Assembly: GCA_030427905.1 (NCBI GenBank)
Contig: JAUICL010000002.1
Location: forward strand, 124,001-188,000
Direction: 5' to 3'
Length of the DNA stretch: 64,000 nucleotides
Origin: Bacteroidia bacterium
Lineage (GTDB): Bacteria; Bacteroidota; Bacteroidia; Flavobacteriales_D; Cryomorphaceae
Within the stretch, counting starts at the first letter, position 1; each line of letters opens with the position of its first letter. A model generated the notes under the pieces. It had not been told where the DNA came from, did not search any database, and saw only the letters and a list, made by a program, of their open reading frames with translations. The position numbers and the translations under genes were made by a program. Shown here in pieces: positions 21,817-61,167 of the stretch.

Positions 21817-21891
21817 GGTGGTTGTAGCTCAGTTGGTTAGAGCATCGGATTGTGGTTCCGAGGGCCGTGGGTTCGAATCCCATCTTCCACC
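21817..21891 (+). tRNA. tRNA-His (GTG)
   Basis: Complete cloverleaf: G-1 at 21817, D arm GCTC/GAGC, anticodon arm TCGGA-TTGTGGT-TCCGA with anticodon GTG, and T arm GTGGG-TTCGAAT-CCCAT. The discriminator is C73, paired with G-1, as is typical for tRNA-His. CCA is not encoded. In the acceptor stem, positions 5-68 and 6-67 read as U-U, an unusual double mismatch. An intrinsic terminator starts 13 bases downstream. Confidence 0.95.
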
Positions 21892-22026
21892 CGACCGTTG
21901 AAAAAGCTCCGATGAAAGTCGGAGCTTTTTTTCTGCCCAAAAATTTGCGAGAGCGCGCTCTCAGGCAAATTTTTGGGCAGAAAAAACTACGATCGGCTTT
22001 TGGGCCGATCTTTTTTTCAACGGTCG
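21892..22026. repeat. Nested palindrome with three hairpins, directly after tRNA-His
   Basis: A perfect 14-bp outer inverted repeat (CGACCGTTGAAAAA at 21892-21905 and its complement at 22013-22026) encloses three hairpins. Hairpin A is AGCTCCGA/TCGGAGCT followed by T7. Hairpin B is an 18-bp perfect stem (21931-21948 with 21965-21982) with a 14-base self-complementary GAGAGCGCGCTCTC at its tip. Hairpin C is GATCGGC/GCCGATC followed by T7. The whole 135 bp could fold as a four-way cruciform. Hairpins A and C look like + strand terminators; the function of B and of the outer stem is unknown. Confidence 0.9.
21905..21932 (+). terminator. Rho-independent terminator of tRNA-His
   Basis: 8-bp stem (21905-21912 with 21919-21926) and a run of seven T (21926-21932). 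It forms the first hairpin of the larger nested palindrome. Confidence 0.85.
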
Positions 22027-22090
22027 AGTCATCCCCTCAACTGAAGTGGACTCTGCTGAATTTTTTGTTTGAACAACTACTTTGCGTGTT

Positions 22091-22930
22091 CTAGCCTCGA
22101 GCTGAAAGTAGCTCTTCAATCCTTTTAAAGATCCCTGAAAGTAAATTAGCGAAGTCTTCTTCAAACCCTAGAACTTCATGTTTTTCCTTGATCTTATCAT
22201 GGATAAATGTGGCTTGATAATCTATATTCATTACCATTTTAAAGACGGACTCTGAGTCAATTACGAATCGCGTATTTGCATCATTTACAGCGTCAACGCT
22301 AATTAACGTATCTTTTTTATTGACACTATCAATAAACGACTGGTCTATGTATCCTGCATTATGAACAAGGATGTGTCTTAGCTCCCAAGTCGACTCCATC
22401 AATTCATAAGATCCATTATCTAGAGAGTCTTTGAGATTGCCAATATGAAAATATTTGCTCAAAAATAATGTCCAATTTTGATAACCCCCTTTCAGCTTCT
22501 TCGAGATTACCTTATTGATTATCATCACTTCAATCTCATCAGATCTCTCTAGTAGTTCTTTGTATTTAAATTCACCTTCAAAAGCGCGTAAAAGATGCTG
22601 GTTCATGCCAAGAGTTTCTTTTAAAAAATTTGATAAAAACATTTCAAATACGCTGATACATGAAAGTAGAATGTGTGAATTTAAAACTTGTAAATATGGC
22701 TTGTCCTTTTCACTCTTCTTAGGATCCAGAATCCCTTTTAGAGCTTTTACTTCTACATACCCTGAATCCCAAATATTCTTGTTTTCTCCATATCTAGATT
22801 CAAAGGACTGTAGCCAGAAGCTGAGGATATTATAGATCTCAGTTTTAAATAGTAGTAAGTCACTGTTATCGGAATGCTCGAACCGTGAAATACTTCGGAC
22901 AAATCTTTTATATTGGGCGAAGCCATCCAT
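22091..22930 (-). CDS. HEPN-like hypothetical protein
   Basis: 279 residues, all-alpha in appearance, with no membrane segment or signal peptide. The C-terminal half has ELRHILVHNAGYID, where Arg185 and His190 form the R-x4-H motif of HEPN domains with the usual following Asn. HEPN proteins are often metal-independent RNases in toxin-antitoxin, abortive-infection or RNA-processing systems. The N-terminal part (residues 1-100) has no recognised motif. No antitoxin or nucleotidyltransferase partner is adjacent. The gene is AT-richer than its neighbours and sits alone next to a tRNA, both consistent with horizontal gain. Family assignment is inference from one motif. Confidence 0.65.
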   Translation of the reverse strand: MDGFAQYKRFVRSISRFEHSDNSDLLLFKTEIYNILSFWLQSFESRYGENKNIWDSGYVEVKALKGILDPKKSEKDKPYLQVLNSHILLSCISVFEMFLSNFLKETLGMNQHLLRAFEGEFKYKELLERSDEIEVMIINKVISKKLKGGYQNWTLFLSKYFHIGNLKDSLDNGSYELMESTWELRHILVHNAGYIDQSFIDSVNKKDTLISVDAVNDANTRFVIDSESVFKMVMNIDYQATFIHDKIKEKHEVLGFEEDFANLLSGIFKRIEELLSARG

Positions 22931-60723: not shown

Positions 60724-60988
60724 GGTCATTCGTAATGCGCCACAAGATGGCAAATTCTCGATAAATGACTTTATGATTTGAACCCCTCAATTTGTCTTCA
60801 CTTCTAATTGCACCATTCCAGCACAGCGATGTACAAGTTTTTTTCACAGTTCTTCCCAAGAAACCACGCGATGCGTTCTCTGCTATTCGCGCGGTAGCGC
60901 GAATACGAATTGGATCAGTTTGCACAAAAGTGCTGTGTCTTCTAAGGAATATGCATTTGATGATTTCGTCTTTTTCCATCTGGCTCTT

Positions 60989-61167
60989 GTCCCGCTAGGG
61001 ACTACCTATCGGTAACCCGACAGTAACAAGTCTTGGAATGCGTGCCGTCAGGTACGCCCTGTGACTTTCCGAAGCACTCCATCTTGGCCGCTATATAGGT
61101 AGTGCCTGACGGCACATTACTCCCGTACAAGATGATTTAATTACCCATAGATAGTCCCTAGCGGGAC
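60989..61167. repeat. Nested inverted-repeat element
   Basis: The outer pair is a perfect 16-bp repeat (60989-61004 GTCCCGCTAGGGACTA with 61152-61167). The inner pair is 13/14 bp (61042-61055 GTGCCGTCAGGTAC with 61102-61115). Short CTACCTAT/ATAGGTAG words lie between. The arrangement resembles a small MITE-like or REP-like unit. Confidence 0.8.

Follow-up and report, generated by a model that had tools for sequence, protein, structure and literature searches.

The 64,000-nucleotide stretch of DNA analyzed here, hereafter called the window, carries a 135-bp palindrome directly behind a tRNA-His gene. An earlier note on this DNA left open whether the palindrome is a stack of bidirectional terminators or a small mobile or structural element. 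Which of these two descriptions fits the locus, and where such a structure might come from, are the questions examined below.

Architecture of the palindrome behind tRNA-His

The sequence between positions 21892 and 22026 is predicted to fold into a closed four-arm structure in which an outer inverted repeat surrounds three hairpins (Table 1). The plus strand yields a folding energy of −85.0 kcal/mol, compared with −39.6 kcal/mol (SD 4.1) for shuffled sequences (z = −11.1; 0 of 200 shuffles as good), and the minus strand yields z = −10.4. The nested triple-hairpin palindrome described in the earlier note is therefore real, as are its position directly after tRNA-His, its perfect 14-bp outer repeat, and the T7 runs that close two of the hairpins. 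The central stem, which had been given as 18 bp, is indeed perfect but is 22 bp long (21927–21948 paired with 21965–21986), since the T-tract after hairpin A pairs with the A-tract before hairpin C. Its tip occupies 21949–21962 and is followed by a 2-nt bulge; both the tip and the 3′-side bulge are seen again in relatives. When inverted repeats within the window are ranked, the central arms are the longest and the outer arms are number 6.

Table 1. Features of the tRNA-His locus, with positions counted from the first nucleotide of the window
Feature	Position	Strand	Basis or remark
tRNA-His (GTG), T-loop GTTCGAATC; host gene of the putative cassette	21818–21892	+	ARAGORN, Rfam tRNA
Outer arm, 5′ side, CGACCGTTGAAAAA	21892–21905	+	14 bp perfect with 22013–22026
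Hairpin A (21906–21925) and T7 (21926–21932); predicted intrinsic terminator of the tRNA transcript	21906–21932	+	Fold; G-T and A-C counts
Central hairpin, 22 bp, T-tract/A-tract base, tip GAGAGCGCGCTCTC, AG bulge on 3′ side	21927–21986		Sequence, fold, inverted-repeat search
Hairpin C (21991–22010) and T7 (22011–22017)	21991–22017		Terminator scan of both strands, fold
Outer arm, 3′ side, TTTTTCAACGGTCG	22013–22026	+	Pairs perfectly with 21892–21905, 14 bp
Linker AGTCATCCCCTC, resembling the C-rich linker of other His-linked units	22027–22038	+	Compared by eye
279-aa ORF, AT-rich, convergent with tRNA-His	22091–22930	−	No Pfam or PADLOC match

According to the terminator scan, hairpin C resembles a terminator when read on the plus strand, and its minus-strand complement is likewise followed by a T-run. 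In an Rfam search only the tRNA reached its gathering score, and the palindrome corresponds to no known Rfam family. Sub-threshold matches of the long hairpin to potC and to microRNA precursors were weak and were judged to be chance. A second nested set of inverted repeats lies elsewhere in the window (60988–61167; GTCCCGCTAGGGACTACCTATCGGTAA and related arms), and its sequence is, as far as seen, unrelated to the tRNA-linked element.

The gene that follows the palindrome is AT-rich, as had been observed before (GC content of 0.34–0.35 compared with 0.45–0.51 upstream). A link to a HEPN gene is unsupported: neither Pfam nor PADLOC matched the ORF to HEPN or to any other family, and other copies of the element adjoin other genes.

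Related units behind other tRNA genes

A search of the whole genome for further copies fails by sequence but succeeds by structure. In a blastn search of its own genome the palindrome matched itself only, and its 30-mer core was absent from the genome contigs searched. One 16-mer of the palindrome occurs in 21 viral contigs, probably by chance. When the 160 nt behind tRNA-His were compared in relatives, several genomes were found to carry four arms written in other letters, and others carry a plain terminator; two further early matches lie behind tRNA-Val and tRNA-Leu. In a five-sequence alignment, 19 of 34 pairs are altered on both sides, whereas shuffled controls give a mean of 8.4 and slid controls 2–4. 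The four-arm architecture is thus kept behind tRNA-His and other tRNAs with compensatory changes.

A covariance model was built from five sequences and is biased toward the family of the window. At E ≤ 1e−5 it finds nine sites in the same genome, eight of them directly behind a tRNA (His, Ser-TGA, Glu, Gly-GCC, Pro-GGG, Val, Arg-ACG, and Arg-TCG). The ninth belongs to Arg-TCG, where a second unit stands in tandem 177 bp after the first. A tenth unit, behind tRNA-Pro(TGG), was recovered by folding the DNA behind the tRNAs of this genome. Nine of its 35 distinct ARAGORN tRNAs, one of the 35 being a doubtful call, consequently bear a unit. Under the model, no plain terminator elsewhere scores better than E = 0.5.

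A match at E = 0.1 is present in 28 of the 40 relatives examined. At E ≤ 1e−5 these genomes hold 58 sites after matches on both strands are collapsed, and 53 of the 58 begin between −5 and +15 nt from the 3′ end of a tRNA on the same strand. The five exceptions are the tandem second unit, a unit displaced from tRNA-Pro by a GIY-YIG cassette, an opposite-strand match at tRNA-Pro, and two sites with no tRNA nearby. In a further set of 22 loci, 17 lie directly behind a tRNA, and the other five comprise one second unit reached twice, one site at a contig end, and two sites away from a tRNA. At E = 1e−5 the model, with this bias, matches only 37 of the 299 Flavobacteriales genomes and seven of 40 named genomes. 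There is good support for placing the palindrome in a family of tRNA-linked cassettes. Simple terminator stacking, which according to the earlier note would be indicated by a lack of other copies and by relatives that keep hairpin A alone, predicts the opposite of what was found.

For analysis of the complete unit, 69 sites were examined. Two had been found by folding and 67 were chosen from model matches (window-family sites at E ≤ 6.2e−4, one at 0.0019, and selected others). Sixty-one of the 69 lie beside a tRNA, one of these matching on the other strand, and 58 elements were parsed by arm, three of the 61 being left out.

The parsed elements permit a test of the strand on which pairing matters. 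If pairing is needed in a plus-strand RNA, then G-T mismatches should be tolerated and A-C mismatches should not. Because the elements are related, the counts that follow are not independent. Arm A has 24 G-T and 1 A-C, the central arm 34 and 15, hairpin C 27 and 23, and the outer arms 6 and 18. The strong excess of G-T among the non-Watson-Crick pairs of arm A indicates that it behaves as a plus-strand RNA terminator. The other arms favor no consistent strand, which fits a palindrome that acts as DNA, or one subject to repair across its arms, better than a single RNA. Of the two descriptions considered at the outset, the element is the better reading, and the terminator is apt for hairpin A only.

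Some units have neighbors worth recording. About 600 nt downstream of the tRNA-Pro-GGG gene of this genome (G000:C1:278283), the unit is followed by an ORF that, judged by eye and by its FFCGAGG motif, looks like a DNA cytosine methyltransferase and might be a defense gene. Five draft contigs (G001:C84, G007:C392, G004:C18, G001:C164, and G005:C36) stop shortly after units, which is expected if repeat arrays break short-read assemblies.

Tails, tRNA copies, and GIY-YIG genes at sister loci

At the sister loci, the four arms are followed by a linker and then by a tail, which is a T-arm with a hairpin in place of the T-loop. One such T-arm reads GGGTTCGAATCCC in the tRNA and GGGATCA...TAATCCC in the tail. 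In the tail T-stem, the nucleotide outside the GG fits the unit's own tRNA in 28 of 34 cases (shuffled mean 16; 0 of 10,000 shuffles as high); the strict tail motif is absent from 27 of 61 units. Directly after the tail, five of the 61 units carry a 17- to 18-nt copy of the tRNA 3′ end, and no clear copy is present in the remaining 56. Across loci, the 3′ end of the adjacent tRNA fits the following DNA better than do the ends of other tRNAs (464 versus 401, SD 9; 0 of 2000). No signal of the 5′ part of the tRNA was detected in the linkers.

In the genome of the window, a copy of the tRNA 3′ end also lies between the tandem units of Arg(TCG), and at Pro(TGG) an ordinary terminator comes directly after such a copy. 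The latter layout gives the impression of a unit pushed in between the tRNA and its former terminator. Tandem arrays follow 42 of the 61 units, with periods mostly from 96 to 178 bp. They often start at the tip of the central hairpin; in that case only the 3′ half of the four-arm structure is repeated, and its 5′ half occurs a single time. Downstream from the window palindrome no tail motif was found, no tandem array is present, and no second tRNA-His 3′ end within the window exceeds chance. The tail hairpin expected after the linker has decayed or been lost in this copy, which lacks a tRNA-end copy of its own and is classed by likeness as a relative of the complete units.

In relative G004, a GIY-YIG ORF separates tRNA-Pro from its displaced four-arm unit. 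Three of nine GIY-YIG matches in the genome of the window lie just behind a tRNA (-Ala, -Asp, and -Asn). Among 16 relatives, chosen mostly because they hold elements or a tRNA-trailing GIY-YIG gene, 15 of 41 free-standing GIY-YIG ORFs trail a same-strand tRNA by no more than 400 nt. The same placement is seen for 13 of 43 ORFs, among the matches listed, in 18 additional genomes to which this selection did not apply. These counts omit ORFs over 250 aa, which by length were judged to be of the UvrC or exonuclease type. With 40 tRNAs, a 400-nt reach on one strand, and 3.5 Mb of sequence, we calculate that about 0.2% of the ORFs would be placed there by chance. Most of the ORFs are not linked to a tRNA (26 of 41, and 30 of 43 among the matches listed).

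A partial copy of the same tRNA follows the tRNA-linked ORF in 12 of 18 cases, and in seven of 13 among the matches listed for the further genomes. In several of these copies, one loop is replaced by a hairpin. The tRNA-linked ORFs group in part by tRNA type (18 changes compared with 23.4 in shuffles; 0 of 200), with one origin for Pro-TGG, one for Ala-GGC, and nearly one for Asn. No such grouping is evident for the Asp- and Met-linked ORFs. Those with a T-loop junction (Pro, His, and one Met) fall in one clade with 86/90 support, which also holds an Asp ORF without a remnant.

Four-arm and GIY-YIG cassettes are stacked behind tRNA-Pro in opposite orders in relatives G003 and G004, an arrangement that hints at independent insertion events in a single place. 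None of the four-arm units was seen to contain a GIY-YIG ORF; the genes occupy separate, stacked cassettes. The T-loop motif GTTCSAWTY is present in 56 of 61 element-bearing tRNAs and in all nine such tRNAs of the genome of the window, its tRNA-His among them. It is permissive rather than decisive, because it also occurs in 14 of 23 cassette-free tRNAs of this genome.

Individual GIY-YIG loci show further peculiarities. At the tRNA-Asn gene of the genome of the window (L067, G000:C5:443900–445200), a decayed GIY-YIG ORF is flanked by partial tRNA-Asn copies that hold inserted TCCCG..CGGGA hairpins. At two other tRNA-Asn loci (L336 and L323, in G012 and G036), the GIY-YIG ORF overlaps the next tRNA-Asn remnant, its C-terminal end (..LVRV..) running into the D-arm. 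Paired GIY-YIG ORFs occur near one tRNA at L352 (G008:C85), L384 (G016:C103), and L393 (G016:C73), the G008 pair being upstream of tRNA-Arg(ACG). A literature search, which covered few subscription journals and preprints, returned no tRNA-linked GIY-YIG genes on bacterial chromosomes and no TLR-type units in Bacteroidota.

Origin of the units and comparison with known systems

The four-arm architecture and its covariation, the linkage to tRNAs, the tails and tRNA-end copies of sister loci, the arrays, and the linkage to GIY-YIG genes are direct observations. The explanation that we favor is that the palindrome probably forms the core of the first unit in a non-autonomous tRNA cassette of the TLR type, whose origin would lie with GIY-YIG endonucleases. 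A full unit, as found at sister loci, runs from the tRNA 3′ end through the four-arm structure and linker to a tail hairpin, made from the T-arm of the same tRNA with an interrupted T-loop, and then to a copy of the tRNA 3′ end unless this has decayed. Such a cassette would come to lie between the tRNA and whatever follows it, and the tRNA would stay intact, since the cassette would bring along a tRNA 3′ end of its own. It would also supply a plus-strand terminator in the form of hairpin A. Either selection or repair across the palindrome could keep the outer arms, the central hairpin, and hairpin C palindromic, and units could expand into tandem arrays. Both origin and amplification may be due to T-loop breaks made by GIY-YIG endonucleases encoded in the same slot at other tRNAs, with the four-arm unit serving as the noncoding partner of the GIY-YIG cassettes. 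We infer that such breaks produced the family.

Other scenarios also could explain parts of this pattern. A bidirectional terminator stack without any mobility, serving to shield a convergent gene and a highly transcribed tRNA gene from each other, would suit hairpin A and its T7, which resemble a normal terminator with a plus-strand RNA bias, as well as a hairpin C that is terminator-like on both strands and the convergent order of tRNA-His and the next gene in the window. However, a stack of this kind has no need of perfect outer arms or a 22-bp central stem, and a minus-strand bias is missing from hairpin C. In addition, the tails copy the T-stem of their own tRNA, arrays of further units follow, and 26 of 35 tRNAs in this genome manage without a unit. 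We therefore regard a terminator stack as unlikely.

Less likely still is that the units are mini-islands, remnants of ICEs or phages that a tyrosine recombinase had integrated into tRNA 3′ ends. Islands integrated at tRNAs have the tRNA 3′ end directly repeated at their flanks, and at several loci such a repeat flanks the unit. But the flanking copy starts inside the T-loop, beside an inserted hairpin, and is not an unchanged core, and the same four-arm core is found at many different tRNAs. We assign a similarly low probability to a functional tRNA-trailer RNA made by read-through of hairpin A. The outer arms lean in the opposite direction from such an RNA, hairpin A with its T7 should halt most transcripts, and the linkers and stems of units behind different tRNAs are, by eye, not conserved in sequence. 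This must be set against the covariation of 19 of 34 pairs and the excess of G-T over A-C in the central arm, and E. coli offers precedents for trailer RNAs in the rrnB TLR sRNA and 3′ETS-leuZ (PMC8144298). The cassette remains the explanation that we prefer, and it can be compared with several known systems.

Intrinsic terminators share with the element a G+C-rich hairpin, a T-run, and apparent action in plus-strand RNA, all seen in hairpin A; for termination, however, one of the four arms would suffice. REP/BIME and MITE-like palindromic repeats are short, palindromic, and dispersed and have a bulged hairpin, like the tRNA-linked units. The units differ in that copies within one genome share no sequence and that their position is bound to tRNA 3′ ends. 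Inverted repeats in bacteria and the homing endonucleases of T4 are the subjects of PMC10434271 and PMC2988022, respectively.

A closer parallel to the GIY-YIG loci is provided by the free-standing GIY-YIG homing endonucleases of T-even phages. According to PMC13096335, their genes lie beside tRNA genes, and the enzyme SegB cuts tRNA genes, prefers the motif RAWTSGAAC, and drives tandem amplification after cutting. On the other strand this motif is GTTCSAWTY, so that the site inside tRNA genes reads as the T-loop. The phage system differs from the loci described here in residing in phage genomes rather than chromosomes; moreover, the four-arm unit carries no such ORF, and cutting in the present case is putative.

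The TLRs of E. coli comprise 22 genes at ten loci, with 18–19 bp that match the end of the upstream tRNA or rRNA; known for decades, they have no accepted origin and most have no known function, according to PMC8144298. They resemble the present units in lying directly behind tRNA genes as tandem units (178 bp at tyrT/tyrV; same source). We read the E. coli tyrV locus and found three 178-bp units whose 19-nt copies follow an interrupted T-arm and begin at the same T-loop A (AATCC...). In both systems hairpins interrupt the T-arm, and the tRNA 3′-end copy that closes the unit starts from the same nucleotide. The E. coli unit does not fold into a closed four-arm start, and the likeness is one of junction and unit layout. 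Location directly downstream from a tRNA or rRNA is shared by the window copy and 53 of the 58 strong sites, whereas the tRNA 3′-end copy at the unit end is found in sister units (five of 61) and not in the window copy, and tandem units are found at 42 of 61 loci and not at the window locus. Assignment of the family to the TLR type rests on the sister units and the junction.

A broader proposal, which we put forward tentatively, is that TLRs, reported in E. coli since 1978 and unexplained, could be a general product of homing into tRNA genes by GIY-YIG endonucleases that are each specialized for a single such gene. Breaks in the T-loop, or in the anticodon or D arm, would be repaired in a manner that leaves cassettes with a spare tRNA 3′ end and a terminator. 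The four-arm palindromes would then be noncoding satellites of these cassettes that amplify to form arrays behind roughly one in four tRNA genes of a genome. The same T-loop junction occurs in another phylum, where the four-arm core is conserved and the slot is also used by GIY-YIG genes that group in part by tRNA type; this gives TLRs a concrete and testable origin. It also suggests that tiny cassettes, and not only large islands, can home into tRNA 3′ ends.
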